Shown: piece by piece, positions 3,439-22,997 of the stretch
Layout of the letters: every line of letters begins with the position of its first letter
Numbering within the stretch: the first letter of the stretch is position 1
IMG/VR virus record: IMGVR_UViG_3300030339_002067
Span: 1 to 24,330 of that record
Direction: 5' to 3' (one strand)
Length of the DNA stretch: 24,330 bases
Origin: a virus
Position numbers and translations under genes: made by a program
The notes under the pieces: model-generated
Database searches by the model: none
Told to the model about the DNA's origin: nothing
Seen by the model: only the letters and a program-made list of their open reading frames with translations

Positions 3439-4991
3439 TGGCCAAAAAACACTCGAACCGTCCCAAAAACCGATCCAAAAGCGGTGGTAGACCCCAAAAT
3501 CGGGGAGCTGAGGTCATATCTTTCGGGGAATCACGCCTGGATGAGGGCGGACTGGGGCAGGAGCTGACGACACGCCAGCTCATTCTTCAAATGTCCGACC
3601 TCCAGGGCTTGCCCAACCCCGACCCGATCCTGCGGGCGGAAGGAAAGTCCCTGTCGGTCTACCGCACCATGGTGGACGGGCACCTGTCTGCCGTGATGTC
3701 CAAACGCACCGCCGCCGTGACGGCGCGTCCCTGGAGCATCGAGCGAGGCAAGGCGTCGGCGCGAGCCACCGCCAAGCTGCAGGACACCTTCGATCACTTG
3801 GATGTGCGCTCCATGACGGACACGGCCCTTGAGTCGCGAGCCTTTGGATACTCCGTCCAGGAAGTGATCTGGGATGTGGATGACTGGATCGTGCCTCGTC
3901 GCGTTGCCCCGCGTCCGCAGGAGTGGTTCCGGTTTGGGCTGCGCGGAGAGACCCGCTTCCTGGATGACACTGGGCTCAATCAGATCGTCCCACCCCGCAA
4001 GCTCCTGGTGGCGCGACATCGCGCCGACTACCTCAACCCCTACGGCAAGCCCATCATGAGCGAGTGCTTCTGGCCACTCGCCTTCAAGCGCGGCGGCCTG
4101 AAATTCTGGGCGCTCTATTGCGAGAAGTTCGGGTTGCCAAAGACGGTCGGCAAGGTCCCGGCATCCATGCCCGAGCCGCAGAAGCTCGATCTCCTGATGC
4201 GGCTGGAATCCATGGTGCGCGCAGCTGCGGCTGTCATCCCGGACAACTCGAGCGTCGAGCTGCTGGAAGCCAAAGCCGGCGGAAGCCTGCCTCACCCCGA
4301 CCTGGTCAAGTGGGCGGATGAGGAAATGTCAACGGCATGGCTGGGCGAAGTGCTGTCCACAGCCCCCGACGCTGGAGGCACCTATGGAGCCGCCAGGTCA
4401 GCCAATGAGGTGCGCGCTGATCTTGCTCTGGATGACGCCAATGCCGTCGAGGCCTTGTGCAACCAGCTCATCACCTGGATCTGGGACGTCAACGGTCTGC
4501 CGGGCCCGCTGCCGTGGTTTCAGATCCACATGCCCGAAGACCTCAAGGCCGCTCGGCTGCAACGCGACCAGGGCCTCTACCGGTTAGGTGTGCGCTTTAC
4601 CCAGAGCTACTTCGAGGACGTCTACGATCTCACCCCGGAGCACATCAGTCGGATCGATGACAAGGCCGCTCCGGCCCCGATGGATGCGGCGGCGGCCTTC
4701 GGTGAGGCTCCCGAACATGACCACCCCGACGAGGTCTTGCAGGATCTGCTAAAGCAGCTGCCAGACGGAGCCCTGGGAAAGCAGGCCAATGCCTTGGCCA
4801 AGCCCATCATGGAAATGGCGAACCGCTCGTCGGGATACGATGAGTTCCTGAAACTCCTGGACACCGAGTTCGCCGAAATGGATGCCCAGGAGTTGGAAGA
4901 CGCGCTGGAGAGCTTTTGCGTGCTGTCGGAGCTGGCTGGAGCTACCGACGCAGCCAAGGACGCTCAAGCCACCTTGGATGCCGATGCCTGA
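3438..4991 (+). CDS. Mu gp29-like portal protein (DUF935)
   Basis: A 517-residue portal protein that forms the DNA entry/exit ring of the head. The start at ATG 3438 is preferred over an upstream in-frame ATG at 3228, because TAGGAGA lies just ahead (3422-3428) and the family normally begins with a short basic tail (MAKKHSNRPKNRSK). Family hallmarks visible include TTRQLILQMSDLQGLPNPDP near residue 45, a VYRTMVDGHLSAVMSKRTAA block, SRAFGYSVQEVIW, and LNPYGKPIMSECFWPLAFKR. The WADEEMSTAWLGEVLST segment matches the conserved C-terminal block of DUF935. The tail is acidic and Ala-rich. Its stop overlaps the start of the gpF-like gene by eight bases. Confidence 0.92.
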   Translation: MAKKHSNRPKNRSKSGGRPQNRGAEVISFGESRLDEGGLGQELTTRQLILQMSDLQGLPNPDPILRAEGKSLSVYRTMVDGHLSAVMSKRTAAVTARPWSIERGKASARATAKLQDTFDHLDVRSMTDTALESRAFGYSVQEVIWDVDDWIVPRRVAPRPQEWFRFGLRGETRFLDDTGLNQIVPPRKLLVARHRADYLNPYGKPIMSECFWPLAFKRGGLKFWALYCEKFGLPKTVGKVPASMPEPQKLDLLMRLESMVRAAAAVIPDNSSVELLEAKAGGSLPHPDLVKWADEEMSTAWLGEVLSTAPDAGGTYGAARSANEVRADLALDDANAVEALCNQLITWIWDVNGLPGPLPWFQIHMPEDLKAARLQRDQGLYRLGVRFTQSYFEDVYDLTPEHISRIDDKAAPAPMDAAAAFGEAPEHDHPDEVLQDLLKQLPDGALGKQANALAKPIMEMANRSSGYDEFLKLLDTEFAEMDAQELEDALESFCVLSELAGATDAAKDAQATLDADA

Positions 4992-6396
4992 GGCTCCGAA
5001 AAAACGCCTGGGGATAAGCCTCGACGTATCCACCCAGGATGTCGCCAAGCTCTTTGGCGTGCCAGCCGAGCAAGCCATTGCCGCCTGGGAAAAGCGCATC
5101 TTGCCCAACAAGCCCAGCCCCGGCGATGTGGCAAAGGCGGCAAAGGGCATTCCCAACCCCAAGATCCCCTGGAAGTCTTCCGACGTCCTTTGGCATGGGC
5201 ATAGCCGCGCCTTCTTCGTCGCCCGCATGACGCGGGCCGACATCTTGGCCGACATCCACAAGGAGGTCGATCGGGCAATCCGCGAAGGCCGCACCTTTGA
5301 GCAGTTTCGGCGCACCCTGGAACCCACCTTGCGAGCCAAGGGATGGTGGTCGGGGGACGAGCCGGACCAGAAGTCTTTGGTGCGCAATCCCCAGACCGGC
5401 CAGGATGAGTGGACACGCCTGGGAACGCCGCGTCGCCTCAAGACCATCTACCAGACCAACAAGGCCGTCTCCTACGATGCCGGCCACTACAAGACCATGG
5501 ATGACCTGGCGGACTTGCTGCCCTACCAGCAGTACCACGTACTTGACCATGGGAAGAATCGACGCGCCGCCCATCAAGCCTTGGATGGGCGCATCTTCCG
5601 AGCAGACGACCCAGCGCTGTCAAGCATCCGCCCTCGCAATGGCTGGGGGTGTGAGTGCCGCATGAACAGCATCACCGAACGCAAGGCGCGCCGTCAAGGG
5701 GAACTTCCGGAAAAATCCACCCTCGTCACCAAGATGGCTCGCGTAGGGCGCGACGGACCGGAGGTGCAGATCCAAGGGATCGACCTGGGAGGAGGCAAGA
5801 GCTTTTACCCCGATCCGGGTTGGGCTTACGATGTTTCCCGCAATGCCCGCGCCGTAGAGGATCTGGCCTGGAGGAAGATCTCGGCGCTGCCTGAACCGGC
5901 GCAAAAGACATTCGTCAATTCGATTGCAAAGGATACCGGGCTATTCAATAGCCGCGCATCGCAATGGAATACTTGGACCCAAGGCATCAAGGCAAGCGAA
6001 ATCGCAAAAGGCGAAAGCGTTGCGATTGGATGGATAGATCATCCGCTCCTATCCAAGGTCACCAAAGCCGCAGGGAAATCGATATCGCCCGTCGTCGTTA
6101 CCGATGATAATGCCATCAAGCACGCCTTGCGCCCAACCAAGTCAAGCGTCCAAGCTTTGACGCTTGAGCAAGTTCAAGAGATCCCCGCCATATTGGCGGC
6201 ACCATACCGTGCCGTTTGGGATGGCGACAACTTGATCATTTACAGTCCTGCGCGCGCGTCAGCAAAAGGGCTTTCAAAGCGTGTCAATGCTCATACCAAA
6301 CTGGTGTTCAAGCGCGATGCATCTGGGAACATGACCCTGGTGACCGCAAGCGAAGTCGAGGCAAGCGCCTTGAGTACAGTCGGGACGACCCTATGA
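4984..6396 (+). CDS. gpF-like minor head protein fused to a PBECR-like nuclease domain
   Basis: A 470-residue protein. The start at ATG 4984 overlaps the portal stop. Residues about 1-260 are a Mu gpF/gp30-type head morphogenesis protein: internal RMTRADILADIHKEVDRAI, then YQQYHVLDHGKNRRAAHQAL, DGRIFRADDPAL and NGWGCECRMNSI, the usual His/Gly/Cys signature of the family. From about residue 300 the sequence changes (from 5880 on the DNA is visibly more A+T-rich). It then contains VVVTDDNAIKHAL, IPAILAAPYRAVW and a KLVFKRDASGNMTLVTASEV strand pair. That order matches the phage Barnase-EndoU-ColicinE5/RelE-like (PBECR) RNase-fold domains known at the C-termini of gpF-type proteins. Injection with DNA and action in the new host is the accepted idea for such polyvalent proteins; catalytic residues were not verified here. 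Confidence 0.82.
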   Translation: MPEAPKKRLGISLDVSTQDVAKLFGVPAEQAIAAWEKRILPNKPSPGDVAKAAKGIPNPKIPWKSSDVLWHGHSRAFFVARMTRADILADIHKEVDRAIREGRTFEQFRRTLEPTLRAKGWWSGDEPDQKSLVRNPQTGQDEWTRLGTPRRLKTIYQTNKAVSYDAGHYKTMDDLADLLPYQQYHVLDHGKNRRAAHQALDGRIFRADDPALSSIRPRNGWGCECRMNSITERKARRQGELPEKSTLVTKMARVGRDGPEVQIQGIDLGGGKSFYPDPGWAYDVSRNARAVEDLAWRKISALPEPAQKTFVNSIAKDTGLFNSRASQWNTWTQGIKASEIAKGESVAIGWIDHPLLSKVTKAAGKSISPVVVTDDNAIKHALRPTKSSVQALTLEQVQEIPAILAAPYRAVWDGDNLIIYSPARASAKGLSKRVNAHTKLVFKRDASGNMTLVTASEVEASALSTVGTTL

Positions 6397-6551
6397 AGGA
6401 GGTTGGAATGCTCCTCGGTCGGTGCGCTAGGTTCCGACTCCCACCTGTATGCTCCGGTTTCCCGGAGGGACAGTCCTACGTGCGTCTCGATTTAGGCTTC
6501 GAGGAGATTCCTTCCAGAAGATACGCCCCTTACAGCTGGAGCGCAACATGA
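6393..6551 (+). CDS. 52-residue ORF coupled to gpF and gpG
   Basis: A small ORF starting with ATGA overlap at the gpF stop (6393-6396) and ending with ATGA overlap at the gpG start (6548-6551). It exactly bridges the gap between the two genes. A GGAGG run sits just inside its start. The product begins MKEVGMLLGRCARFRLPPVC and ends with SRRYAPYSWSAT. It has no signal peptide or membrane segment, two cysteines and many Pro/Arg/Tyr residues. I do not recognise it. Mu itself has no gene here. Because it follows directly on a toxin-like nuclease domain, an immunity or chaperone role is conceivable, but this is context only. Confidence 0.55.
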   Translation: MKEVGMLLGRCARFRLPPVCSGFPEGQSYVRLDLGFEEIPSRRYAPYSWSAT

Positions 6552-7084
6552 GAATCGAGCTCACCTTCAGCTCTCAAGATGCGCGTCATACTCTGGCACA
6601 CCTGGCCAATGGCGATCTCAGTCGTCCCATGGCTGCCGGTGCCGAGATCCTCGTCGACTCGGTGCAGCAGAATTTCTCTGACGGCGGCAGGTACGATCGC
6701 GCCGGGTCCATCCTGGGTGGCTCCAACAAGTGGAAGGTCACCAACAATCCAACTCCTCTCATCAAGATGGGCATGCAGGGTGGCCTGATGCACTCCATTC
6801 GAGGACGCAGCGACAACGACAGCGCCTTTGTCTCTAGCGACAAGCCTTACGCCGCGATCCACAACTTCGGAGGCAGTCAGACCAGCTATGCCCGCAGCGA
6901 GATCTTCACCCGCAATCGGTCCCAAACCGGGAAATACTCTGGTGGTACCAAGTCGGGGCGCGGAAATACCTACGGAACCAGTTCACGTAAAGTAGAGGCT
7001 CGCCCCTTCGCTGTGATCCAAAAGGAAGACATCGAGGACTTCAAGGACCTGTTGCGCGACTACCTGGCCAGGCCCGTCAGATGA
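6548..7084 (+). CDS. Mu gpG-like virion morphogenesis protein
   Basis: A 178-residue protein in the position of Mu gpG, directly after gpF. It begins MRIELTFSSQDARHTLAHLA and has the AAGAEILVDSVQQNFSDGG block near residues 36-55 (family: conserved region with 'I..SI..NF..GG'). It continues with the GGLMHSIRGRSDNDSAFVSS block and YAAIHNFGG near residue 100, and the late RPFAVIQKEDIEDFKDLLRDYL block. These are the usual landmarks of the phage virion morphogenesis family, which acts in head completion/tail joining. The start overlaps the upstream 52-residue ORF; the stop (7082-7084) overlaps the end of the convergent Mor/C-like gene by eight bases. Confidence 0.88.
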   Translation: MRIELTFSSQDARHTLAHLANGDLSRPMAAGAEILVDSVQQNFSDGGRYDRAGSILGGSNKWKVTNNPTPLIKMGMQGGLMHSIRGRSDNDSAFVSSDKPYAAIHNFGGSQTSYARSEIFTRNRSQTGKYSGGTKSGRGNTYGTSSRKVEARPFAVIQKEDIEDFKDLLRDYLARPVR

Positions 7085-7385
7085 GACTCATCTGCAACGA
7101 TTCGGGGCGGCGCTTGGGAACCCGGCTCACCAAATTGCGTACCGTGCGCGTGGTGCAACCCAATGCGCGGGCGATTTGGTCGTCATTGTCACCGGTCCAA
7201 TGTGCCTGCACATACCGCAGCATGTACTCGGTCGTGAACCGCACGGGAGGCTCCAAGCGAGTGCCCCGCAACTTGCGCCAAACATCAGCCGCAACACGCG
7301 GCCCAAGGCTCTGCGCAAGCAACTGGAGGCCTCCCTCAGGGAAGTCTTCGACCGTCAATTCGTCCCAGGCGGAAGGCAGTGACAT
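7077..7385 (-). CDS. Mor/C-like transcription activator
   Basis: A 102-residue protein on the minus strand. Family features of Mor/C activators are visible: an N-terminal dimerisation helix pair (LQLLAQSLGPRVAADVWRKL, about residues 20-39), a short beta-like hinge (TRLEPPVRF), and a C-terminal helix-turn-helix (WTGDNDDQIARALGCTTRTV and onward, about 66-90). In Mu, Mor activates middle and C activates late promoters by contacting RNA polymerase at promoters with poor -35 boxes. The gene is convergent with gpG (8-base overlap) and divergent from the Dam-type methylase. The start at the complement of 7383-7385 was chosen because the similarity begins there; the longer open frame upstream is a shadow of the methylase gene. 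Confidence 0.8.
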   Translation of the reverse strand: MSLPSAWDELTVEDFPEGGLQLLAQSLGPRVAADVWRKLRGTRLEPPVRFTTEYMLRYVQAHWTGDNDDQIARALGCTTRTVRNLVSRVPKRRPESLQMSLI

Positions 7386-7391
7386 GCCCCC

Positions 7392-8845: not shown

Positions 8846-9058
8846 TCAGGAAACGAATAGGAGGGTGCGCTGTTTGCTCCCTCCGATGATGTACTCGATC
8901 CTCTTGATCGTGTACGAACCGTGAGCCGTTCCATTGAACGTCACCTTGCCACCTATGGTGAAAGGGCCGTAGGGCGTTGAGGCGCTCAAGACTGGGCCGG
9001 TACCAGGTTCGACTCCAGGCTGGATCACTTCTAGGTCATAGGTCAGCGGATTTGCCAT
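8846..9058 (-). CDS. Small beta-rich accessory protein A
   Basis: A 70-residue protein (MANPLTYDLEVIQPGVEPGT at its start) with alternating hydrophobic residues suggestive of a small beta barrel: PFTIGGKVTFNG, GSYTIKRIEYIIGG, RTLLFVS. It appears distantly related to the next minus-strand product at 9347-9589. Both have 'M-A-x-TY-LE', a central 'F-x-[IV]-G-x', a 'Y-x-[IV]-x-x-[IV]-E' strand and a 'T-x-L-[LF]-V' end. It is the last of three genes downstream of the repressor and carries leader copy 1 just before it. An SD-like AAAGGAAA lies upstream of the ATG. Function unknown; the position suggests expression in the lysogen. Confidence 0.65.
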   Translation of the reverse strand: MANPLTYDLEVIQPGVEPGTGPVLSASTPYGPFTIGGKVTFNGTAHGSYTIKRIEYIIGGSKQRTLLFVS

Positions 9059-9074
9059 CTCAGTTTCCTTTGCG

Positions 9075-9130
9075 CGGGTTTTGGTTCCGGGATGCGCTCC
9101 CGGCAGGCGTCAGCCTCTGCTGAAATCGAT
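9075..9130 (-). ncRNA. Structured leader element, copy 1
   Basis: Read on the minus strand, the leader has hairpin I TCAGC-AGAG-GCTGA (complement of 9110-9123). Hairpin II follows, CCGGGA-GCGCA-TCCCGG (complement of 9087-9103), then AACCAAAACCCG and the start codon of the gene at 9058. Two further copies precede the genes at 9589 and 9993. Hairpin II keeps its pairing by compensatory changes between copies. There is no T-run after it, so it is not a simple terminator. Confidence 0.6.
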
Positions 9131-9198
9131 GTGAACGACATTGCCAGTACGAGATATCACACAGCAGCCCCACTGAGGCTCAATCGAAAGGTCATAAC

Positions 9199-9378
9199 AT
9201 GGAATCGAAAATTGATCCAGCCCTCGCCATCATTGAAAGCCTCCAAGGCTACTGCGTCAGAGATGCGATTGGAGTACTGGAAGACGCGAAGCGATACATT
9301 CTAGGATTCTCCAAAGTCGATATCACCGATGATGTGAGGCATTCTTTTACGATTCCGCCTGCACAAGCAAACGAGTAG
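9199..9378 (+). CDS. 59-residue plus-strand ORF inside the accessory block
   Basis: ATG 9199 follows AAAGGTC at a fair SD distance and runs to TAG 9376-9378. The predicted protein starts MESKIDPALAIIESLQGY and has a 'DPALAIIESLxGYxVxDAIxVLEDAKRYI' pattern of two amphipathic helices, a style common in small phage proteins. It is the only plus-strand gene in this stretch and its end overlaps the end of the minus-strand gene at 9347-9589 by 32 bases. Its upstream region is the antisense of a conserved minus-strand reading frame, so one of the two may be spurious. Function unknown. Confidence 0.4.
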   Translation: MESKIDPALAIIESLQGYCVRDAIGVLEDAKRYILGFSKVDITDDVRHSFTIPPAQANE

Positions 9379-9589
9379 TGATAATACCTCCTTGTTGATT
9401 CATTAACGTCTCCACCGACAGCACAACGAAATAGCCATTTCGCTTTGCATTCATCGAGTGCGTGAGACATATACGCTCACCAACTTTGAATTCTTTGATG
9501 GGGTGGTCAGAGATCCCGAATTGAGGAACGACGCAACCATCGCCATCTTGGTGATCTAGCCAAATCTCAAGTTTATAGGTGATCGCCAT
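9347..9589 (-). CDS. Small beta-rich accessory protein B
   Basis: An 80-residue protein (MAITYKLEIWLDHQDGDGCV at its start) with predicted beta strands (EFKVGERICLTHS, GYFVVLSVETL, ITTRLLVQ), looking like a small SH3-like or OB-like barrel. It is a probable distant paralog of the 8846-9058 product. GAGGAGGATGAG before the ATG is a strong SD. It carries leader copy 2 immediately upstream. No family is recognised. The gap of about 290 bases to the next minus-strand gene holds leader copy 1 and the 59-residue plus-strand ORF. Confidence 0.68.
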   Translation of the reverse strand: MAITYKLEIWLDHQDGDGCVVPQFGISDHPIKEFKVGERICLTHSMNAKRNGYFVVLSVETLMNQQGGIITTRLLVQAES

Positions 9590-9605
9590 CTCATCCTCCT
9601 CTTCA

Positions 9606-9658
9606 CGGGTTTTGGTTCCAGGTCACGCACCTGGCGGCGTCAGCCTTTGCTGAAATCG
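9606..9658 (-). ncRNA. Structured leader element, copy 2
   Basis: On the minus strand: hairpin I TCAGC-AAAG-GCTGA (complement of 9640-9653) and hairpin II CCAGGT-GCGTG-ACCTGG (complement of 9618-9634), then AACCAAAACCCG. Relative to copy 1, hairpin II differs at two paired positions (G-C to A-T, and A-T to T-A) with pairing intact, which is covariation. It lies between the stop of the 9670-9993 gene and the start at 9589. Confidence 0.62.
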
Positions 9659-9669
9659 TTTCCAGGGGA

Positions 9670-9993
9670 TCATGCAATCTTGCGGATCGCAGCCCCTTGC
9701 GATGTGGTAGCTATGAACCAGCATTCGTCATCCGGCTCAAGGTGCGCTCTAATTTCTTCCGCAAGCTGATCCGCATTGATCCCGCGCTCATTGAGATCAA
9801 CAACAAAGCTTTCTTCTCCCAATCCACAGAATGACTCATCGCCCAAGGCGCGACGGTTCTTGAGCCTGGACTCAAGTTGCTCGGGCGCGAAGTCTTCGGT
9901 TGTGCGCTGCGTTTCAAAGAACACCACGACCAAGCCCTCACGAAGGATATGCCAAGAATTGTCTTCGATGATCTCAAGGATCGATGCAAACAT
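9670..9993 (-). CDS. 107-residue acidic accessory protein, unknown
   Basis: A 107-residue protein starting MFASILEIIEDNSWHILREG. It is rich in Glu/Asp and looks alpha/beta: EGLVVVFFETQR strand, QLESRLKNRRALG helix, ESFVVDLNERG strand, LAEEIRAHLEPDDECWFIAT helix-strand. It appears globular and cytoplasmic, with no membrane segment. It is the first gene after the repressor on the same strand and has leader copy 3 directly before it. AGAAGAAAGA serves as a weak SD. Position between repressor and phage accessory genes suggests lysogenic expression, for example superinfection exclusion or host modification, but no family was recognised. Confidence 0.68.
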   Translation of the reverse strand: MFASILEIIEDNSWHILREGLVVVFFETQRTTEDFAPEQLESRLKNRRALGDESFCGLGEESFVVDLNERGINADQLAEEIRAHLEPDDECWFIATTSQGAAIRKIA

Positions 9994-10010
9994 GCGGGAT
10001 CTTTCTTCTG

Positions 10011-10065
10011 CGGGTTTGTAATCCGGGATAGCCCCCGGTAAGCGTCAGCCTCTGCTGAAATCGAT
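10011..10065 (-). ncRNA. Structured leader element, copy 3
   Basis: On the minus strand: hairpin I TCAGC-AGAG-GCTGA (complement of 10045-10058) and hairpin II CCGGG-GGCTAT-CCCGG (complement of 10023-10038, extendable by a G-U pair), then ATTACAAACCCG and the start at 9993. Conservation with copy 1 extends further upstream, to about 10087, where both copies are open in the same frame (see findings). The repressor stop lies just upstream. Confidence 0.58.
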
Positions 10066-10091
10066 GTGAACGATGTTGCCAGTGCGGGCGA

Positions 10092-10592
10092 TTACCTCGG
10101 GCCGTCTGTGCCGGTCTGCGGCTCGGACTCCAAACCCTCCGATCCATGATCGCAACGCGATTTCGCCATAGCGTTCATGAGCACTGCGGCAGCACGGGCC
10201 ACCTCATTGAAGAGCAAGGCAAGCTGTTGTGGAGATGGCTGCGTTTTGCCATTCATCCAGTCTCGTACTTGCTTCGGCGTCGCATCGACATCTGCTGCGA
10301 CATCATCAGGCGCACCAAGGACCTTGAAGGCATCGCGCAGGCGGAGGGGAGGGAGAGTGTCGGATGAACTCCGTACAGCACTGCAATCACCGTCGTCCGC
10401 CTCTCCTGCAAGAAAGGCTATGGTGGTTCCGCATTCTTGCGCGACGACTTGCAGGAAGTCAACGGTAGGGCTGTACGCTCCTCGCAAATAATTGTTCAGC
10501 GTCGCCGGAGATACGCCCGCTTTCTCTCCAATTTCTTTTTGCGTTTTTTCGGACGCTTTGATAACAGCCCGCAGGCGCTCTGAGAATTTCAT
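10092..10592 (-). CDS. Phage repressor with two helix-turn-helix domains
   Basis: A 166-residue DNA-binding protein. Residues about 5-60 form an XRE/HTH_3 domain (KTQKEIGEKAGVSPATLNNY is the recognition region). After a linker, residues about 84-130 look like a second helix-turn-helix: DAFKVLGAPDDVAADVDATP then KQVRDWMNGKTQPSPQQLAL. A tail without recognisable domain follows. It is divergent from a Cro/Ner-like gene with an operator region between them, the standard lysogeny switch of a temperate phage. An AGAGGA motif precedes the ATG at 10590-10592. No peptidase domain is present, so LexA-type self-cleavage is unlikely. The last residues overlap, in another frame, a short conserved reading frame that ends at leader copy 3. 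Confidence 0.82.
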   Translation of the reverse strand: MKFSERLRAVIKASEKTQKEIGEKAGVSPATLNNYLRGAYSPTVDFLQVVAQECGTTIAFLAGEADDGDCSAVRSSSDTLPPLRLRDAFKVLGAPDDVAADVDATPKQVRDWMNGKTQPSPQQLALLFNEVARAAAVLMNAMAKSRCDHGSEGLESEPQTGTDGPR

Positions 10593-10687
10593 GAAATTCC
10601 TCTTGCATCGCTAAATATCTGGCGCTAACTTGTTGGAAGTAGCAGGAGCTACTACACCAAGCCAAAGCCTAGCAAAAGGAGCAATCA
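10593..10687. promoter_or_regulatory. Lysogeny-switch operator/promoter region
   Basis: The 95 bases between repressor and Cro/Ner-like gene contain the dyad AGTAGC-AGGA-GCTACT (10638-10653). It lies between a -35-like TTGTTG (10630-10635) and a poor -10-like TACACC (10653-10658) for the plus-strand operon, a spot where a bound repressor would block polymerase. A direct repeat CGCTAA occurs nearer the repressor gene. AAAGGAGC just before 10688 is the SD of the first early gene. Confidence 0.55.
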
Positions 10688-10879
10688 ATGCCCTCGGAAA
10701 TTTTTGCGACCCGCATCTCGTGGGTCGCCGTAGCCCGTGCTGTCTCTGAAAAATTGGGGCGCAAATACTCCGCGAACTACTGCCGTGAGGTCGCCATCGG
10801 CTTCCGCAGCAGCAGCGTCATCGAACCCGTCTTGAAGGAACTCGGAGCCATGCAGGAAGAACAGGCGGTGGCCGCATGA
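10688..10879 (+). CDS. Cro/Ner-like early regulator
   Basis: A 63-residue protein, first gene of the early operon, with a strong SD (AAAGGAGC). It looks like a single small helical DNA-binding domain: ISWVAVARAVSEKLGRKYSA, then NYCREVAIGFRSSSVIEPVL. This resembles the small Cro-type or ParB-associated 'REVxxGxRxSxxIxPVL' proteins of phages. Position opposite the repressor argues for a Cro/Ner role, turning down repressor or early transcription. Its last codon overlaps the next gene (ATGA at 10876). Confidence 0.65.
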   Translation: MPSEIFATRISWVAVARAVSEKLGRKYSANYCREVAIGFRSSSVIEPVLKELGAMQEEQAVAA

Positions 10880-11391
10880 ACGCCACGACCAACGCAGTGA
10901 CCAGAGGCAAAGTCAGTCGCCACGGAATCGCCAGCACCAATCCGGGCGCCTTCTGGTGGGGTGAATGGATGGCCACCGAATGCGGACGCCAGGTCATTGT
11001 CCTCCATGGCGAAGACACTGACGCCAAGTGCTACGCCGATGATGGCGGAAGCATTGGTGAGCTGCTCGGCACCTGCGAGCTGATTGAAAGCAGCATGAAA
11101 GCCGCAGCAATGGAGCCCTACCCCTTCGCCGCCCGTGTCCAACCGGACCTCACCATCACCTTCCCCTTCGACAGCATCCAGCGTCATGCGCCATGGATCC
11201 GCAAGGAACATGTCGGCTCGTGGGCTGAGGTAAACGGTCGCATCAGCGAAGACATCCTCCTCGTCAAAATCCTCTTGCCCTGCGAAAAAGGCCCCGTCTG
11301 GACTGCTGGCGTGACTCCCTACGCTCCGAAGACCATGCTCTGGAAAACCCTCGTCGAGTGCGGCGCGGAAAATATGGATGTGGCCGCATGA
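10876..11391 (+). CDS. Stand-alone protein with MuA-type beta-barrel domain
   Basis: A 171-residue protein with no assigned family by itself. Its residues about 25-72 (GAFWWGEWM, then R-Q-V-I-V-L, D-AKCYADDGG, ELLGTCELIE) align with residues 505-552 of the transposase encoded 3.5 kb downstream (TWWGEWM, R-E-V-V-L, T-AKCYEATENG, PLIGVCQLIE). In MuA this is the C-terminal beta-barrel part of the catalytic core region, a DNA-contacting non-catalytic module. The catalytic Asp/Glu residues are not present here. The C-terminal 100 residues show no similarity I can see. It is cotranscribed before the transposase with overlaps on both sides. A modulator of transposase assembly or a DNA-binding regulator are the obvious guesses. 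Confidence 0.75.
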   Translation: MNATTNAVTRGKVSRHGIASTNPGAFWWGEWMATECGRQVIVLHGEDTDAKCYADDGGSIGELLGTCELIESSMKAAAMEPYPFAARVQPDLTITFPFDSIQRHAPWIRKEHVGSWAEVNGRISEDILLVKILLPCEKGPVWTAGVTPYAPKTMLWKTLVECGAENMDVAA

Positions 11392-12326
11392 GTTCCGTCT
11401 TCATCCCGGAAGAGGCCAAGCCCTACTGCAACCACATGGGGATCATCAACTGGCATGCGATCACGGAGCTGATCCGCCAGGAGCGCGGCGTAGAATCCTA
11501 CCTGGAGAGCGGCTACCAGCTTGGGCTGATCCTCGAAGGAACGATGGAAGACAAGCGCGGCGCTCTCCCGATCATGCGCCGCCTCAAACTGGACGAGATC
11601 ATCAGCGCCCGTCGTCACAACAGGCATCATCCCCATTTCATCAAATCAAAGGAGTTGGCCGAAAGGTTTGCTGCCGACTTCGATATCGATATCAGCCAAG
11701 TCCCCGGTACTGGCCCAGACGGAATGGTTCTCAAACGCGACGTGGTCGCCTACCGTCGTTTCCTCAAGGCAGGTAAGATCGCTGTCATACAGTCCCTAGA
11801 AACCGCTGCAGAAGACGATGATGCATCAAAGCCGGTCAGATGCCCTTCGAACCAAGATCGCCTCCTCCGCCAGCGCCGTATCCTGGCCAGGCACATCTAC
11901 CGGATGAAGATGGCTGAACGTGAAGCTGTCTCGACTCTCGACGCCGCTTCACGGGCAATCCACAATCTGCACGGCGAGGTGGATGCCGCAAACATCCGCA
12001 CCGACGACGCCACTGATCGCCTGGCAGCCACCTCCGAGAGGCTAGCGGAAGCCTTGATCGACAAGCTCGCAGTCGAATCCAGGCTCAGCCGTGCCGAGCA
12101 AATGTGCGACGCTCTTCGGGCCGATCTCTACAAGGCCTGCACCGACCGCACCAACGCCATTGCCCGCGCCATTGCCGCTGAAGAGCGGGCCGCCCAGGCC
12201 GACAGGATACTCTCGCAGATCCTGAGCGAACTGCACGCACCGCGCACCCTGCGCCGCACTGGAACTTGGCTTGACCACGTCATCGGTTTCCTGTTCCGCC
12301 TTTCCCCGAAAGAAGCCCACGCATGA
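11388..12326 (+). CDS. Coiled-coil protein with E3-binding-like module
   Basis: A 312-residue protein. Start at 11388 (ATGA overlap), not the upstream in-frame ATG. Residues about 87-124 (SKELAERFAADFDIDISQVP, then GTGPDGMVLKRDVVAYRRF) closely follow the peripheral subunit-binding (E3-binding) domain of 2-oxo acid dehydrogenases. That domain has the consensus 'P-x-x-R-x-L-A-x-x-x-x-[IV]-D-[LI]-x-x-V-x-G-T-G-x-x-G-x-[IV]-x-x-x-D-V-x-x-[YF]'. The N-terminus is a separate small domain. Residues 160-285 are a long Ala/Glu/Arg coiled coil, and the end has an aromatic amphipathic segment (TWLDHVIGFLFRL). The RQRRILARH motif at 161-169 recurs in the next gene. Its place before the transposase suggests an early function, possibly scaffolding; no partner is visible. 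Confidence 0.72.
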   Translation: MSSVFIPEEAKPYCNHMGIINWHAITELIRQERGVESYLESGYQLGLILEGTMEDKRGALPIMRRLKLDEIISARRHNRHHPHFIKSKELAERFAADFDIDISQVPGTGPDGMVLKRDVVAYRRFLKAGKIAVIQSLETAAEDDDASKPVRCPSNQDRLLRQRRILARHIYRMKMAEREAVSTLDAASRAIHNLHGEVDAANIRTDDATDRLAATSERLAEALIDKLAVESRLSRAEQMCDALRADLYKACTDRTNAIARAIAAEERAAQADRILSQILSELHAPRTLRRTGTWLDHVIGFLFRLSPKEAHA

Positions 12327-12814
12327 ACACCCAGCAAGAACTCAGAGCGCAGAACGTTGAACTGCACAATATCCTCGCCACAGCAAACAAGCACATCCGC
12401 AACATGGAGCTGGCTATTGCCTATGTCCTGGAGGAGCGCGATCACCTGCGCAACCTGTGCATGCTTCTGCACGACGACACCATGCGCATGCAGCTGGAGC
12501 ACGACAACGAGGAGATCGTGCTGCGTGATGCCGTATCACGGCTGCGTGACGAGCTGAACATCGCCCTGGATGAGCAGGTGCGCCTGCTGGCCCAGCGCCG
12601 CATCCTGGCCAAACACCTGCGTGCCCTGATGTACCTGGCACGTCCAGCTCCAACTGGTGGGTGGATGCTCGAAGTGGTTGCTGCAGAATACGCTCCAGAT
12701 CATTCCCAGGGCGACTTCGCCTTTACCCTGGACCCCACTCCGACACCGAGTATCCTGGAGCGCATCTCCACCTGGTTCCGCGCCATCACCGCTTCGCGCA
12801 CAACGGCAGCTTGA
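12323..12814 (+). CDS. Coiled-coil protein sharing a motif with its neighbour
   Basis: A 163-residue protein beginning MNTQQELRAQNVELHNILAT. Residues about 1-100 are a strongly predicted coiled coil. QRRILAKHLR at residues 91-100 repeats the RQRRILARHIYRM motif of the preceding product, and both proteins end with an aromatic amphipathic segment (here ILERISTWFRAI). The two genes overlap by ATGA (12323-12326), and together may be a duplicated pair or a hetero-oligomer. No enzymatic motif is seen. It ends three bases before the transposase start. Confidence 0.68.
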   Translation: MNTQQELRAQNVELHNILATANKHIRNMELAIAYVLEERDHLRNLCMLLHDDTMRMQLEHDNEEIVLRDAVSRLRDELNIALDEQVRLLAQRRILAKHLRALMYLARPAPTGGWMLEVVAAEYAPDHSQGDFAFTLDPTPTPSILERISTWFRAITASRTTAA

Positions 12815-12817
12815 TCG

Positions 12818-14824
12818 ATGGGAGCGGCTCAACCATACATCGCATTGCCAGAGTCCGATGAGGATGTCTGGCTATCCATTGCCGATGCGGCAAGTGTACT
12901 GGCCCAGCCCGAGCGCACCGTGCGCGCTCAACTGGGAAAGTATGTCGCGCGCCATAGCGAGAAGGTTGGTGCAGGAGGCGTACGCCACGAGGTGCTTCTC
13001 ACGTCTCTCCCCCTGGATACGATTGCTCGCTGGGAGGCCAGGCGCAGCATCATCCCGTACATCCCCCCTCACGAGTCCGACCTCGTGGCCCAGGCCTACG
13101 AGCGCGCCGACCAACGCACCCGCAAATACTTCGACCGCTGGTCTCAAGCCTTGCTTGCGACCGAGGGGATTACAGGGCGCAAGGCCTTGGAATCATGGGC
13201 TGACGCCTGGAACCGTAAGCACCCGGAATGCGATGTCTCCGTACAGAGCCTGTACCGCATTCGCGCCTTGGTCCGCGAGCATGGCCGCATTGGCCTGCTG
13301 ATGCGCGAATCTGGATGCCGTGAAAGCTCCGTGCGTGACGAATGGTACTCCACCTTCTGCCGCGCTTACCTGCACGAGAACCGGATCTCTGCAAACGACG
13401 CCAGGCTGGCTGCCTTGGGCGAAGCGATCACCCAAGGCACAACTAGCGGAGAAGCCGACTTCCCTTCCGTCGGATCGTTCTTGCGCCGCTTGCGCGCCGA
13501 GTACGCTCCTGCGGTGATCTCGTTTGCCCGCGATGGCGAGAAGCGCTACTTCGACCGGCACGGCTTCTACGTGGAGCGTGACTATTCGGCTCTGGTGTCC
13601 GGGCGCATCTGGGTGGGCGACTCGCGCGTCCTGGATGTCCTGGTGAGCGTGGAAGGCTCCACCCGCCCCGTGCGCCCATGGATCACCACCTTCATCTGTA
13701 TGAAGAGCTACGTACCCATGGGGTGGTACATCCACACCAGTGCCCCAAGCGCCGAAAACACCATGCGCTGCCTGCGCCACGGCCTGGAGCGATCCGGCAA
13801 GCCGGACTGGTGGTACCTGGACAACGGTCGCGAGTACAAGAACACGGAAGTGACCGGTGTCAAGCGTGGGCATGTGGTGAACTTCGATACCCAGCACACC
13901 GGCTCCGTGGCCGCACTGCTTGGCATCAATGTCCACTTTGCCGAAGCCAAGCGCTCACGCGCCAAGGTGATCGAGCGGCAGTTCTTGGAAATGAAGCTGC
14001 ACTTCGACAAGTGGTGGAGCACCTACAAAGGCGGCAGCACGGCAGAAAAGCCAAATCGCCTCAAAGAGGTATTGAAGCACGCTTCACAGATCCCCGCGTT
14101 CGAGGAATTCCAGCGCGATCTGAACCAGTGGATGGCAGAGACATTTCCCTCCATGGTGTGCAACGGCAAGATCCATCGCGGAAAGACACGCGCCGCCGTC
14201 CTGCTGTCGGACTACACCATGCATGGCCCCCTGCCACGCATCTCAAGCGACACCGCATCCATGCTCGTGACCAAGCTGGCCCGGCTGCGCGTAGGGCGCC
14301 GGGGTGTCACGCTCGCAGCGCTGAAGTGCACCTGGTGGGGTGAGTGGATGCCGCTCTGGAAAGACCGCGAGGTGGTGCTGCGTTACGACCCGGACGACTT
14401 GACAACCGCCAAATGCTACGAAGCGACAGAGAATGGAAGTGGCCCACTCATCGGCGTGTGCCAGCTGATCGAAGCCGCCGGTGCCATGGTGAGCGCCAAC
14501 GATGCCTATGGCCTCTCGGTGGTGGGCGAACAGAATCGCATCCACAAGCGCGAGATCAAAGCCATGAAGGAGGCCCTGCCGCAAGCGGACAAGGGCGAAC
14601 TGGAGAGCCTGCGCCAGTCCTACCGGGTCGGTGTGGGAGCCCAGGCCCTGGAGATCCCCCACGGCAACACCACCATCGTGACGGAGCATGACCGTGCCAT
14701 CGCACAAGTGCGCCGCGAAGACCGCTCCGGGCGCGCCGATCTGGCGAACCTGGTACCCAAAGCAAAGCCCACCAAGAAAACCGACTGGATCTGGGTAGAC
14801 GACCAGGTCGCAGCCGCAGGATGA
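12818..14824 (+). CDS. MuA-like DDE transposase
   Basis: A 668-residue transposase that would pair phage ends and join them to target DNA. The N-terminus (residues 15-75, WLSIADAASVLAQPERTVRA and onward) is the MuA-type winged helix DNA-binding part, and a second helical domain follows to about 200. The RNase H-like catalytic core has D268 (in WVGDSRVLDV), D335 (in WWYLDNGREY) and E386 (in AKVIERQF), spaced as in MuA (269, 336, 392). The beta-barrel module starts at W506 (WWGEWM). The tail, about residues 570-668, is helical and basic. The length matches MuA (663). The start at 12818 has no visible SD and is probably coupled to the gene ending at 12814. Its stop overlaps MTHSQ ATG at 14821. 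Confidence 0.95.
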   Translation: MGAAQPYIALPESDEDVWLSIADAASVLAQPERTVRAQLGKYVARHSEKVGAGGVRHEVLLTSLPLDTIARWEARRSIIPYIPPHESDLVAQAYERADQRTRKYFDRWSQALLATEGITGRKALESWADAWNRKHPECDVSVQSLYRIRALVREHGRIGLLMRESGCRESSVRDEWYSTFCRAYLHENRISANDARLAALGEAITQGTTSGEADFPSVGSFLRRLRAEYAPAVISFARDGEKRYFDRHGFYVERDYSALVSGRIWVGDSRVLDVLVSVEGSTRPVRPWITTFICMKSYVPMGWYIHTSAPSAENTMRCLRHGLERSGKPDWWYLDNGREYKNTEVTGVKRGHVVNFDTQHTGSVAALLGINVHFAEAKRSRAKVIERQFLEMKLHFDKWWSTYKGGSTAEKPNRLKEVLKHASQIPAFEEFQRDLNQWMAETFPSMVCNGKIHRGKTRAAVLLSDYTMHGPLPRISSDTASMLVTKLARLRVGRRGVTLAALKCTWWGEWMPLWKDREVVLRYDPDDLTTAKCYEATENGSGPLIGVCQLIEAAGAMVSANDAYGLSVVGEQNRIHKREIKAMKEALPQADKGELESLRQSYRVGVGAQALEIPHGNTTIVTEHDRAIAQVRREDRSGRADLANLVPKAKPTKKTDWIWVDDQVAAAG

Positions 14825-14844
14825 CCCATTCCCAAGGAGAGATC

Positions 14845-15768
14845 ATGCCAAACGAAACACCGCGCAATACCTCGGATCTGGCCCTGAAGCTTCAGGCGCA
14901 CATGACAGAAAACGGAATAACTCAGGCAAGCGTTGCCAAGGCAATTGGATGCACTGGCGGAGTAATTAGCTCCTATCTCGCCGGGAAGTACAAGGGCGAC
15001 GTGGCGGGTACTGAGAAGAAAATCCGTCAGTACCTGGAGCTGGAAGAGGAGCGCGCTGAAAGCGCGGTGCTCCCCATTGTCCCGGTGGTGAAGACCACGG
15101 CATGGGCCAGCGTGACCAACGCCATCAAGGTCGCGGCCCACAAGCGCGCCATCATCTCGGTGACGGGGCCTGCCGGGGTTGGCAAGACAACGGCTGTGGA
15201 AGAGTACCTGCGCAACAACACCGCCACGATCCTCATCACGGCGCACCAGGGATACACCTCCCGCGACCTCTTCTGCGAGCTGTGCGACAGCTTGAGCGTT
15301 TCCCCTAAGGGCACGCTCCATGCTCAGCTCAAGCGCATCGTGGAAAAGCTGGAAGGGTCCGGCCGCCTCATCATCATCGACCAGGCCGAGTACCTGCCGC
15401 GCATCGCTTTGGACATGCTGCGCAGCGTGCGCGACTTCGCGAAGATCCCGATCGCCTTGGTCGGCCTACCGCGCCTCAACGAAATCATCGTGGGTGATCA
15501 GAACAACTTCGCACAGCTCTCCAGCCGCATGCGTTTGCGCCGCAAGGTCGACCCCATGACGGCAAACGATGAAGAGATCCTCATCCACGCCTACATGGGC
15601 GATGTCCCGCAGGACGTCATCGTCGCGCTGCACAAGCATTGCCGACGCAACGCCCGCATCCTGGTGGACTTGATCGACTGGTGCCTGGATCTCAGCCGGC
15701 TCAACAAGACCGCTGTCACCGCCGACGCTGTCGCCTACGCCGCCGAAGTGAGTGGGGCCATTGCATGA
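14845..15768 (+). CDS. MuB-like AAA+ target-selection ATPase
   Basis: A 307-residue ATPase that would bind target DNA and deliver it to the transposase. I chose ATG 14845 because AAGGAGA (14834-14840) sits just before it; ATG 14821 gives eight more residues. The N-terminal helix-turn-helix (about residues 15-50: GITQASVAKAIGCTGGVISS) is as in MuB. The AAA core has Walker A GPAGVGKTT (108-116), Walker B LIIIDQAE (175-182), a sensor-like ALVGLPRL, and an SSRMRLRR arginine patch. The C-terminal ~60 residues match the small helical MuB C-domain. It follows the transposase, as in Mu. Confidence 0.92.
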   Translation: MPNETPRNTSDLALKLQAHMTENGITQASVAKAIGCTGGVISSYLAGKYKGDVAGTEKKIRQYLELEEERAESAVLPIVPVVKTTAWASVTNAIKVAAHKRAIISVTGPAGVGKTTAVEEYLRNNTATILITAHQGYTSRDLFCELCDSLSVSPKGTLHAQLKRIVEKLEGSGRLIIIDQAEYLPRIALDMLRSVRDFAKIPIALVGLPRLNEIIVGDQNNFAQLSSRMRLRRKVDPMTANDEEILIHAYMGDVPQDVIVALHKHCRRNARILVDLIDWCLDLSRLNKTAVTADAVAYAAEVSGAIA

Positions 15769-16004
15769 GCGCCACCCTCTCTGCCAACCGCGCCATCAGC
15801 GAGCTGGAGCTCCTGCTGGGTGAGCCAGGGCGGCCGCTGCTGCAGGCGATTCGTGCTGACCTGCGCGACAAGTCCACCCGCATCACTGTGCTACGCAACA
15901 AGGCCGCTGTGCTGGAGCGCGGGTTGCTCACCATCCAGGCCGGAGGCCCAGCCATCTCCACGGCCCAGGGCGCTTTGCACACAGCCGCGAGGCACGAGGC
16001 ATGA
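15765..16004 (+). CDS. 79-residue helical protein between MuB and GemA
   Basis: The start overlaps the MuB-like stop (ATGA at 15765) and the end overlaps the gemA-like start at 16001, so it is an integral gene. It appears all-helical with one coiled-coil-like stretch (ANRAISELELLLGEP, then ITVLRNKAAVLERGLLTI). No family is recognised; small genes are commonly found in this place in Mu relatives. Confidence 0.62.
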   Translation: MSATLSANRAISELELLLGEPGRPLLQAIRADLRDKSTRITVLRNKAAVLERGLLTIQAGGPAISTAQGALHTAARHEA

Positions 16005-16528
16005 GCGCCAAACTCATCCACACCCTGGTCTCGCGGCTGGGCATGCCCGACGACCAGTACCGCCAGATGCTGCGCGACCGGTGCGGCGTGGAGACCTCCA
16101 GCGCTCTCACCCCCAGCCAGCAGCGCGATCTGGCCCAGGACCTCAACGCCCTACTGCCCAAGGACAGCCGCATGCGCATCACCGGCGCTGGTGGTGCCCG
16201 CCGCCGGTTCGAGCACCTGGCCAACCGTGAGGCCCAGTACGCCACGCCCGCCCAGCTGCGCATGCTGGAGGCCACCTGGGTAGAGCGTTCTCGCAAGCCC
16301 ACCCGGCAGGAGGCTCAAGACGCCCTCAATGAGTTCCTGCTCCAGCACTTCCGGATCGGCCGCATCGAGTGGATCCTCAAGGACCAGGTCGGCAAGATCC
16401 TCAAGTCCCTGCAGCAAGTCGACCCTGCTGCCCCGACACGCGCCGCCTGGAACCGGGAGCGCCGCAAGCCAAAGCCCAGACCCAAGACCACCAAGACACC
16501 CACCACCACACCAACAGAAGGAGCCTAG
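16001..16528 (+). CDS. gemA: GemA-like regulatory protein (DUF1018)
   Basis: A 175-residue protein resembling Mu gp16/GemA. The N-terminal KLIHTLVSRLGMPDDQYRQM block, residues 4-23, has the 'I...R..LGL.DD.YR.ML' motif, followed by SALTPSQQRDLAQDLNAL. A second block (LRMLEATWVERSRKP, then FRIGRIEWIL) sits in the middle, as in the family. The tail is Lys/Pro/Thr-rich and low in complexity. In Mu, GemA affects host gene expression and DNA topology; that function is carried over only by family. The start overlaps the previous gene. Confidence 0.85.
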   Translation: MSAKLIHTLVSRLGMPDDQYRQMLRDRCGVETSSALTPSQQRDLAQDLNALLPKDSRMRITGAGGARRRFEHLANREAQYATPAQLRMLEATWVERSRKPTRQEAQDALNEFLLQHFRIGRIEWILKDQVGKILKSLQQVDPAAPTRAAWNRERRKPKPRPKTTKTPTTTPTEGA

Positions 16529-16529
16529 A

Positions 16530-17150
16530 ATGGCCATCACCAACGATCGTGGAGACTGGATCGACTCGCGAGGGGCGGCATGCCCTGCGAAGTTCATCCC
16601 GCCCGTCGAAAAGCGACGCGATGCCGCCGTGGAGCGCATCCACAAAATCGGCAAGCGCCTGGAAGAGCAGATGCGCAAGGCCAAGAAGGACGTGCTGGAC
16701 GAGATCAGCGCCTACCTCGAATGGCTCGACAAGAACTCCGACACCCCTCGCTCGCGCAAGGGAAACATCACGCTCACGAGCTACTCCGGCGACAAGCAGG
16801 TGGAGCTTGCGATGGACGATGTGATCAAGTTGGACGAACGTCTACAACAGGCCAAGGAGCTGGTCGATGCATACGTCGCAAGCCTGGGAGAGACCGCTCC
16901 CGAAGAGCTGACGACGCTAGCGCATACCAGCTTCGACACCGACAAATCCGGTCGCGTGAACCAAGCCCTGGTGCTGCGCCTAACGAAATACCAATTCAAG
17001 GACCCGCGCTGGCAGCGAGCCGTACAGCTAATCCGCGAATCCATGCAGGTCGTCGGAACACGGCAGTACCTGCAACTGCGGCAGCTTGTCCCCAACGTTT
17101 CAGGCGCCAAGAAATGGGAGCGCCTCCACCTCAACTTCTCAGCGATGTAG
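16530..17150 (+). CDS. DUF3164-like protein
   Basis: A 206-residue protein found next to GemA in many Mu-like phages. The N-terminus 'MAITNDRGDWIDSRGAACPA' and the following IPPVEKRRDAAVERI (about residues 22-36) are the family's opening pattern. A long helical part and YSGDKQVELAMDDVIKLDER (about 85-104) follow. The C-terminus has the FKDPRWQRAVQLIRESMQVV block. It is soluble and charged. The biochemical role of the family is unknown; early expression is the rule. SD AAGGAG lies seven bases before ATG 16530. Confidence 0.85.
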   Translation: MAITNDRGDWIDSRGAACPAKFIPPVEKRRDAAVERIHKIGKRLEEQMRKAKKDVLDEISAYLEWLDKNSDTPRSRKGNITLTSYSGDKQVELAMDDVIKLDERLQQAKELVDAYVASLGETAPEELTTLAHTSFDTDKSGRVNQALVLRLTKYQFKDPRWQRAVQLIRESMQVVGTRQYLQLRQLVPNVSGAKKWERLHLNFSAM

Positions 17151-17162
17151 GAGATAAAACTC

Positions 17163-17633
17163 ATGCCCAAGATCAAGACCACCTACAAGGCCCGTGGGGT
17201 CACCGTCGAACTGGAACCGGAATCGATCGGAAAGATGACTCCGGCCTTGGTTCAGCGCGTCCTCATCACGCACCCTTCGCCGATTACACCTACCGACCTG
17301 GCTCGTGGATGCGCAGCGATCCTGAAGGAGATGAATCTCCGCGAAGCTAAGGCCAAGCGCAAAGCTTCCGACAAAACCAAGTCCGAAGCGAAGAAGGAGA
17401 AGGCCAAAGCACGCAAGGGCGGCAAGGCCAAGGTCATCGCCGAGGCCCGCGCCCCACGCAAGCGCAAGACTCCCCAGCTCGAGATGTTCCCGGATGCCCC
17501 CAACGATCGGATCAATCCCGAGAACATGGAGGAGTACTTCCCAATAGGGAACTACGAGAGCGAATACAGCAGCTGTACTGGAGAGGCCACGACACCAGCC
17601 CCCATCACCGCCAACTCCTGCGTGCTGGGATGA
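17163..17633 (+). CDS. Lysine-rich protein, unknown
   Basis: A 156-residue protein with SD TAGGAG ahead of ATG 17163. The first 60 residues look globular (MPKIKTTYKARGVTVELEPE onward). A very basic Lys/Ala linker (about residues 62-105: AKAKRKASDKTKSEAKKEKA and onward) follows, and then a polar tail with MFPDAPNDRINPENMEEYFP. The basic middle could bind nucleic acid or act as a flexible arm. No family recognised. The stop overlaps the next ATG (17630). Confidence 0.65.
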   Translation: MPKIKTTYKARGVTVELEPESIGKMTPALVQRVLITHPSPITPTDLARGCAAILKEMNLREAKAKRKASDKTKSEAKKEKAKARKGGKAKVIAEARAPRKRKTPQLEMFPDAPNDRINPENMEEYFPIGNYESEYSSCTGEATTPAPITANSCVLG

Positions 17634-17797
17634 CCCTCTCGCAGTTCTGCCCATCCGTGATCATCGGATTCAGCGTGGCTGCGGCGTTGGTCTACCTGAT
17701 CAAGGGCGACACCTCGCGATTCATCTACTGGATCGCGGGGGCGTCCCTCAACGCCGCCGTCACCTTCCCGCTCCCGAGGCTCCCATGGTCCAACTGA
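17630..17797 (+). CDS. 55-residue membrane protein, lysis cassette
   Basis: ATGA overlap with the previous gene at 17630-17633; ends at TGA 17795-17797. Two hydrophobic segments (SVIIGFSVAAALVYLI and FIYWIAGASLNAAVTFPL) separated by a charged turn KGDTSR suggest a two-helix membrane protein. It overlaps the start of the holin-like gene. It could be an antiholin, a second holin or a helper in the lysis cassette. Confidence 0.62.
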   Translation: MTLSQFCPSVIIGFSVAAALVYLIKGDTSRFIYWIAGASLNAAVTFPLPRLPWSN

Positions 17798-18057
17798 CGA
17801 TTCTCCAATGGCTGCGCGGCTTCCTTTCCGAATCGACCGGAGCAGCCAGCAACAGCCGCCTGATCGCCCTGCTCTCGAACCTTTCCGCCCTGGTGCTGGT
17901 CTTCATCGTGACCCTCACCAAATCCGACATCCCTCCCGTGGCGCAGACCATTCTGCTGTGCGCCATGGGGGCCGGGACCCTCGGGTACCTGGGCAACAAG
18001 GTCGTCACCACGTCCACTACCACAAACGCCTCTTCAACCACTGGAGAAACCCCATGA
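17785..18057 (+). CDS. Holin-like membrane protein
   Basis: A 90-residue protein with two membrane segments: LIALLSNLSALVLVFIVTL, about residues 26-44, and VAQTILLCAMGAGTLGYLGN, about 52-71. A Ser/Thr-rich tail follows. Size, topology and position directly before an amidase fit a small holin that permeabilises the inner membrane. The start overlaps the preceding membrane gene, and the stop overlaps the amidase ATG (18054). The family was not identified by name. Confidence 0.68.
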   Translation: MVQLTILQWLRGFLSESTGAASNSRLIALLSNLSALVLVFIVTLTKSDIPPVAQTILLCAMGAGTLGYLGNKVVTTSTTTNASSTTGETP

Positions 18058-18632
18058 AATACCCGATCAAGATTTGCTGGGATGCTGGCCACGGAGGCCA
18101 TGACACCGGAGCCATCGGTCCCACCAGCCTGCGCGAGAGCCTGGTCACGCTGTCCCTGGCCAACCGCGGTCACATCCTGGCCATGGCCGCAGGCCTGACC
18201 TCCATGCTCACCCGCGAACGCGACGACTTCATTTCCCTGGACCAGCGCGCCTCCATTGCCAATGCTGCCGGTGCCGACCTCTTCGTCAGCATCCACTGCA
18301 ATGCCGTGGGCAATCCTGCGCCCAACGGCTACGAGGTCTGGACGACTCCCGGACAGACCCAGGCCGACCCATTGGCCGAGGCGATCTTCAGGAGCATCAA
18401 GGCGCAATTCCCTCGTGAGATCGGGCGCGCCGACCTGCAGGATGGAGACCACGACCGCGAGGCCAACTTCGCCGTCCTGCGCTTGACCAAGGCACCGGCA
18501 GCTCTGGCAGAAACCGGCTTCATCAGCCATCCCGAAACAGAAGACCTGATGCGTCAAGATGCTTGGCTAGACCTGATGGCTCACGCCATCGTCGGTGGTG
18601 TCATGGCCTACCTCGATGGTCTCGACAGTTGA
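18054..18632 (+). CDS. N-acetylmuramoyl-L-alanine amidase endolysin (Amidase_3)
   Basis: A 192-residue zinc amidase that would cleave between MurNAc and L-Ala of peptidoglycan. The Amidase_3 hallmarks are all visible: DAGHGGHDTGA with His13, Glu28 (in RES), SIHCNA with His81 as zinc ligands, and Glu153 in the catalytic AETGFISHPET block. Residues TRERDDFISLDQRASIAN match the family. There is no signal peptide or cell-wall-binding domain, so release depends on the holin-like protein. It lies in an early-type operon, unlike Mu where lysis genes are late. Confidence 0.92.
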   Translation: MKYPIKICWDAGHGGHDTGAIGPTSLRESLVTLSLANRGHILAMAAGLTSMLTRERDDFISLDQRASIANAAGADLFVSIHCNAVGNPAPNGYEVWTTPGQTQADPLAEAIFRSIKAQFPREIGRADLQDGDHDREANFAVLRLTKAPAALAETGFISHPETEDLMRQDAWLDLMAHAIVGGVMAYLDGLDS

Positions 18633-18816
18633 GCCGACGGCACAGGGGGATCTCAGCTACTGCTGGACCCTCCTGTGCCCCGGCTGCCCGCTGGGACTCG
18701 TGACGCACTTCGGTACCCACGAGTCCGCCCACTCCCTGCGCGATGGCCTCCAAGCGCAGGGCCTTGCTCCCAACGGATGCACCATCCGACAAGCCACGAA
18801 AGACGACCTCCCATGA
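18616..18816 (+). CDS. 66-residue Cys-containing protein, unknown
   Basis: An ORF overlapping the amidase end by 17 bases and ending in an ATGA overlap with the spanin-like gene at 18813. The product (MVSTVEPTAQGDLSYCWTLL at its start) has CWTLLCPGC in the middle and a polar C-terminus. An upstream ATG at 18595 is also possible. No lipoprotein signal is clear. The two-sided coupling supports that it is real, but the start is uncertain. Confidence 0.5.
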   Translation: MVSTVEPTAQGDLSYCWTLLCPGCPLGLVTHFGTHESAHSLRDGLQAQGLAPNGCTIRQATKDDLP

Positions 18817-22710: not shown

Positions 22711-22712
22711 AT

Positions 22713-22955: not shown

Positions 22956-22997
22956 AAGGATTTGATCCGGATCGCTGGATTCATTCTGAGATTCATC

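Follow-up and report, generated by a model that had tools for sequence, protein, structure and literature searches.

A 171-residue protein encoded in the early operon of a transposable phage almost certainly carries the IIβ barrel domain of a transposase. In the reading that we favor, at a probability of roughly 0.4, the barrel of the transposase gene tnpA was duplicated into a separate early gene, was kept with its cognate transposase, and acts by contacting TnpA or the ATPase TnpB. The gene lies in a 24,330-nucleotide stretch of viral DNA (IMG/VR record IMGVR_UViG_3300030339_002067, positions 1 to 24,330), the whole of which is here called the window. Such a gene has also been kept by another phage, which is clearly distinct from the first but has a transposase of the same type, and this suggests that the detached domain is functional and probably adjusts transposition.

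The free-barrel gene and its operon

The early operon contains the free-barrel gene and the transposase genes, with the following coordinates.

10092 to 10592, minus strand: CI-type repressor, divergent from the early operon.
10688 to 10879, plus strand: small conserved early gene in a Ner-like position, 63 aa, common to near relatives.
10876 to 11391, plus strand: free-barrel gene, 171 aa, a confirmed ORF encoding a barrel and a C-terminal extension.
10897 to 11097, plus strand: transposase-type IIβ barrel, residues 8 to 74 of the 171-aa product, assigned by homology, profile and predicted fold.
11098 to 11388, plus strand: C-terminal extension, residues 75 to 171 of the 171-aa product, starting at an in-frame ATG.
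11388 to 12326, plus strand: 312-aa protein with an E3_binding domain (PF02817, by Pfam) and a long C-terminal part.
12323 to 12814, plus strand: 163-aa protein, coiled-coil-like by eye.
12818 to 14824, plus strand: MuA-like transposase TnpA, 668 aa (phrog_310, E = 1.8e-74), with D268, D335 and E386 present.
14276 to 14479, plus strand: barrel inside TnpA, residues 487 to 554, carrying RYDP; very probably the source type of the free copy.
14821 to 15768, plus strand: MuB-like AAA+ ATPase TnpB (phrog_296, AAA_22).

The 171-aa ORF was present in the transposase operon as the initial annotation had described it, and it overlapped both of its neighbors by ATGA, at the stop of the gene at 10688 to 10879 and at the next start at 11388. 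BLASTP aligned residues 8 to 73 of the product with residues 487 to 554 of TnpA, the gene for which lies 1.4 kb downstream, at 37% identity and with an E value of 4e-11. The similarity to the transposase that had been proposed is therefore real, but the interval first given for it, residues 505 to 552, was slightly too short. The product had also been said to lack catalytic residues, and indeed the catalytic RNase-H/DDE region is absent from it, the alignment with TnpA being confined to the barrel.

Searches of Pfam and PHROGs returned no significant match for the 171-aa product. A held-out profile HMM was built from seven barrels taken from transposases of further phages; to avoid circularity, neither the window nor the second carrier phage, IMGVR_UViG_3300027796_000280 (L010), contributed to it. 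The profile matched the free barrel of the window with an E value of 4.5e-10 (34.5 bits) and that of the second phage with an E value of 1.2e-4; the best score among shuffled controls (2000 copies, two free proteins) was 8.7 bits. The profile thus groups the product with transposase barrels and not with an unrelated family, as the initial annotation had expected.

Both free barrels retain the WWGEWM edge and an R-x-G turn. Neither has the stretch RY[DN]P. Of 62 unique TnpA barrels, 60 contain this stretch, which is common in the family without strictly defining it, as MuA itself has RFDP. The hairpin loop of the window free barrel is four residues longer than in the barrels of other phages, and the longer loop is also found in both parent barrels, those of the window and L010 TnpA proteins. 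A match to the motif WWxEWM is not in itself diagnostic, as most DNA stretches that encode it in viral contigs lie in unrelated ORFs. Accordingly, the evidence for homology is the whole domain, and a chance match to the motif was rejected because the whole-domain profile was significant.

TnpA itself is related to two proteins with known structures, TnsB (3e-17) and MuA (1.4e-16), and its barrel matched PF09299 (Mu-transpos_C) at residues 487 to 536 with 26 bits (cut-off, 21.7). In both phages that carry a free barrel, the TnpA barrel and the three conserved acidic residues are intact. Because TnpA is complete, we conclude that the free barrel is an extra copy rather than a missing part. A transposase domain encoded beside tnpA would also be expected if the transposase were split and received its barrel in trans, an explanation that the completeness of TnpA makes extremely unlikely and that was rejected.

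The window is organized differently from phage Mu, as the terminase, Mu-type portal and head genes (1101 to 7084) precede the repressor and early operon (10092 to 23400), and host-like DNA, with an AraC-type gene, begins at about 23.4 kb. On the minus strand, a reading of about 100 aa at 7087 to 7390 has a helix-turn-helix-like C terminus and, by eye, the look of a Mor/C-type activator. Also on the minus strand, three copies of a leader of about 75 nt with two hairpins (9062 to 9142, 9590 to 9672 and 9996 to 10078) sit 5′ of three small minus-strand ORFs (8846 to 9058, 9347 to 9589 and 9670 to 9993). The second hairpin of the leader contains a compensatory change, from CCGGG/CCCGG to CCAGG/CCUGG. 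The leader repeats are not expected by chance, had no match in Rfam and were found in this phage only among the fetched loci.

Predicted fold of the free barrel

AlphaFold2 models were made from an alignment that combined the free barrels with those of transposases; because the alignment contained TnpA barrels, it favors a barrel as the answer, and the predicted fold is supporting rather than independent evidence. The 80-aa relative from the second carrier phage was predicted to be a confident barrel (pLDDT, 82). In the window protein, residues 7 to 71 had pLDDT values mostly above 90, with predicted strands at residues 7 to 12, 17 to 19, 25 to 28, 39 to 44, 49 to 55 and 60 to 71, and residues 75 to 171 had values mostly under 50 and no confident fold. 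The proposal of a free-standing barrel copy therefore holds by fold and by profile, but the barrel occupies only the N-terminal 43% of the protein, or about its first 74 residues.

With the 80-aa model as the query, the best 13 Foldseek matches were all TnsB and MuA chains, and with the window model the top seven were TnsB. VIA-align gave the 80-aa model Z scores of 9.9 with TnsB and 8.2 with MuA residues 477 to 560, the best unrelated protein scoring 5.0; the corresponding scores of the window model were 7.8 with TnsB, 6.7 with MuA residues 482 to 560 and 4.4 with the best unrelated protein. We conclude that the predicted fold is the MuA/TnsB IIβ barrel, which superposes on MuA at about residues 480 to 560, in agreement with the initial annotation.

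Origin and distribution

The second carrier phage, IMGVR_UViG_3300027796_000280 (loci L005, L007 and L010), has a transposase 57% identical to the window TnpA and encodes an 80-aa ORF that is a barrel and nothing else: MNASESPKAEIVSKEIVLIERRGIRTDIPYTFWWGEWMASRKGQNVRIEIPLVDACSSVRCFELRTGSFIGDACKLELAA. Its barrel gene also overlaps its neighbors by ATGA and occupies a different position in the operon from that in the window. The 80-aa gene stops where the tail of the window protein begins, and a separate ORF starts at once with ATGAAAGCC. Because the window tail starts with a methionine at the point where the other phage has a separate ORF, two small ORFs may have fused to give the 171-aa protein, judging from the sequences. 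A further contig that encodes an identical window protein (L003/L009) is 100% identical in DNA to the window over 18 kb and is thus the same phage, leaving two independent carriers rather than three.

The barrel tree supported the domain duplication that the initial annotation had raised as an option. Both free copies nest with the barrels of the window and L010 TnpA proteins (support, 98/99), which as transposases form one clade (support, 100) whose two known members both have an intact free barrel. The two free barrels adjoin each other with weak support (81/83), and a separate origin of each from its own phage's tnpA was not rejected (p-AU of 0.17 and 0.09). Their end branches are long (1.42 and 2.96), indicating fast evolution. 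We conclude with considerable confidence that the free barrel arose by duplication from this transposase lineage, and the duplication out of tnpA probably took place in an ancestor of this clade of transposable phages.

A partial, fast-evolving and rare copy could be a decaying, functionless fragment of a second transposase copy. No other transposase remnant adjoins it; moreover, in each of the two divergent phages the gene starts and stops cleanly and has ATGA overlaps, its third-position GC (0.72 to 0.73) is like that of neighboring genes, and an intact core and a confident predicted fold are found in both phages. Decay is therefore very unlikely.

The protein, the alignment of barrels, the transposase and a DNA pattern for WW[GA]EWM served as queries against viral contigs, and GTDB genomes and phage records were searched as well. 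Among about 90 related TnpA loci from IMG/VR and GTDB, no free barrel was found beyond the two independent carriers, although some of the contigs are short, such that single absences there mean little. The gene was thus found in one two-member clade only and is not a constant neighbor of such transposases, a point that the initial annotation had proposed to check. Among 167 Fibrobacterota genomes there was likewise no free barrel, as all matches fell in frames of at least 375 aa.

Several candidates were set aside. Short-frame matches to PF09299 in a Clostridia-class sample comprised two at contig ends, one in a stop-interrupted TnsB-like gene and one with an internal stop, and a frame of 390 aa from a Fibrobacter genome was a frameshifted TnpA. 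Antisense ORFs at three loci (L027 to L029) had weak profile scores and were treated as chance. A paired-cysteine signature was dropped as a mark of the clade because transposases of Fibrobacter prophages share it. Prophages of Fibrobacter and Fibrimonadaceae contain the nearest cellular relatives of TnpA, and the host of the window phage is therefore likely a member of the Fibrobacterota.

A natural comparison is offered by L012 (IMGVR_UViG_3300010212_000047), in which the free-barrel and E3_binding genes are both missing. Its Ner-like, D12 methyltransferase and GemA proteins are 88%, 84% and 76% identical to those of the window, compared with 40% for TnpA and 38% for TnpB. The DNA similarity ends with the Ner-like gene, at its stop codon; in L012, this gene is directly followed by a gene for a relative of the 163-aa protein. 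The tnpA-tnpB block is thus swapped between close relatives (L012, 7283 to 11412; window, 10638 to 16533). As the flanks are similar and the block is foreign, we infer that the block from the Ner-like gene to gemA was exchanged and that the free barrel and E3_binding genes belong with the window type of tnpA.

The E3_binding protein is 37% identical between the two carriers (window, 11388 to 12326; L005, 3255 to 4031), its gene order relative to the barrel gene differs between them, and no relatives of it were found in the other fetched loci. On these genomic grounds, the linkage of the two genes agrees with a functional connection to the transposase and is also expected from common descent, as only one clade is involved.

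The same evidence bears on whether the barrel has been recruited to an unrelated task, such as host takeover, and no longer touches the transposition machinery. Such a change of role would agree with the fast evolution, the lost RY[DN]P, the variability of the genes that separate the Ner-like gene from tnpA and the 97-residue tail of the window copy, for which a comparison of residues 75 to 171 with all fetched ORFs and loci found no relative. A freely moving accessory gene would, however, be expected with other transposases too, and the free barrel occurs with one tnpA clade only and is absent from L012 with its foreign tnpA-tnpB. We regard an unrelated task as rather unlikely.

Possible function and known systems

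One way in which a barrel could adjust transposition is by protein contact, and known barrels make such contacts. In IS21, IstA barrels rest on the DDE modules (RNase-H domain) of partner subunits (PMC10122671), and the IstA barrel docks on IstB and is required for stimulating its ATPase; TnsB engages TnsC through the same barrel domain (PMC11208146). By analogy, modulation through contact with TnpA or TnpB is our tentative choice of mechanism, at rather less than even odds. We infer a partner, a direction of effect and a role for the neighboring protein as follows. A loose barrel with a WWGEWM edge would occupy a partner site on TnpA or TnpB, and its occupancy of the site would limit or time transposition. 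The free barrel might stimulate ATP hydrolysis by TnpB, or it might block the assembly of excess transpososomes during replication, and the co-occurring E3_binding-domain protein may be its partner. The fuller proposal, in which the barrel is a dedicated modulator of its own transpososome or of the MuB-like ATPase, has the E3_binding protein as a partner and is passed on together with the matching tnpA-tnpB as one unit, is doubtful. Because of the fast evolution and the loss of RY[DN]P, the contacts made by the ancestral barrel may no longer exist.

E3_binding-type domains are similar to small folds that bind nucleic acids, and their co-occurrence with the free barrel could point instead to a DNA-binding accessory that, perhaps together with the E3_binding protein, binds target or phage-end DNA and steers target choice or prevents self-insertion. 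Moreover, binding to target DNA has been reported for MuA IIβ (PMC3362531). The free barrel of the window is acidic, however (net charge, −5; pI 4.7), that of the second phage is near neutral (net charge, +1; pI 7.9), and neither is markedly more basic than TnpA barrels; the conserved RY[DN]P stretch is also gone from both. The acidity of the window barrel argues slightly against DNA binding, which we consider unlikely, and we therefore prefer a protein contact, made as a competitor or as an ATPase modulator.

If the contact reading is correct, a transposition regulator was made by lifting out a contact domain alone. In MuA-family transposases, the function of the barrel is difficult to disentangle from that of the remaining enzyme, and a natural barrel-only protein beside its parent TnpA/TnpB, together with a relative that lacks it, would be a direct handle on the contacts of the domain and on how phages restrain transposition during replicative growth.

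The open-access literature that was searched describes no free-standing barrel. The closest folds belong to internal domains. Domain IIβ of Mu MuA (PDB 4fcy and 1bcm) resembles the predicted fold over almost the whole barrel, but it lies between the catalytic and C-terminal domains, whereas the free barrels are separate genes without RY[DN]P. The best structural match, with Z up to 9.9, is the barrel of Tn7-like/CAST TnsB (7svw, 8ea3 and 9bw1), which unlike the free barrels is an internal domain of a full transposase. The C-terminal barrel of IS21 IstA (8b4h and 8q4d) is a weaker structural match (Z of 4.8 to 5.8) and the best-documented precedent of a barrel that docks on a helper ATPase; it too is internal, unlike the free barrels, and no free IstA-type copy is described in the literature on it that was examined. 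The TnpA barrel is a member of the Pfam family PF09299, whereas both free barrels fall below the family threshold and lack its RY[DN]P core.

Parts of transposases that act as separate proteins and regulate transposition are known in Tn5 Inh and IS1 InsA, both of which are products of the transposase gene and retain parts for end binding or dimerization. The free barrel resembles them in being a separate part of a transposase, and it differs from them in being an independent, duplicated gene that supplies the barrel alone.
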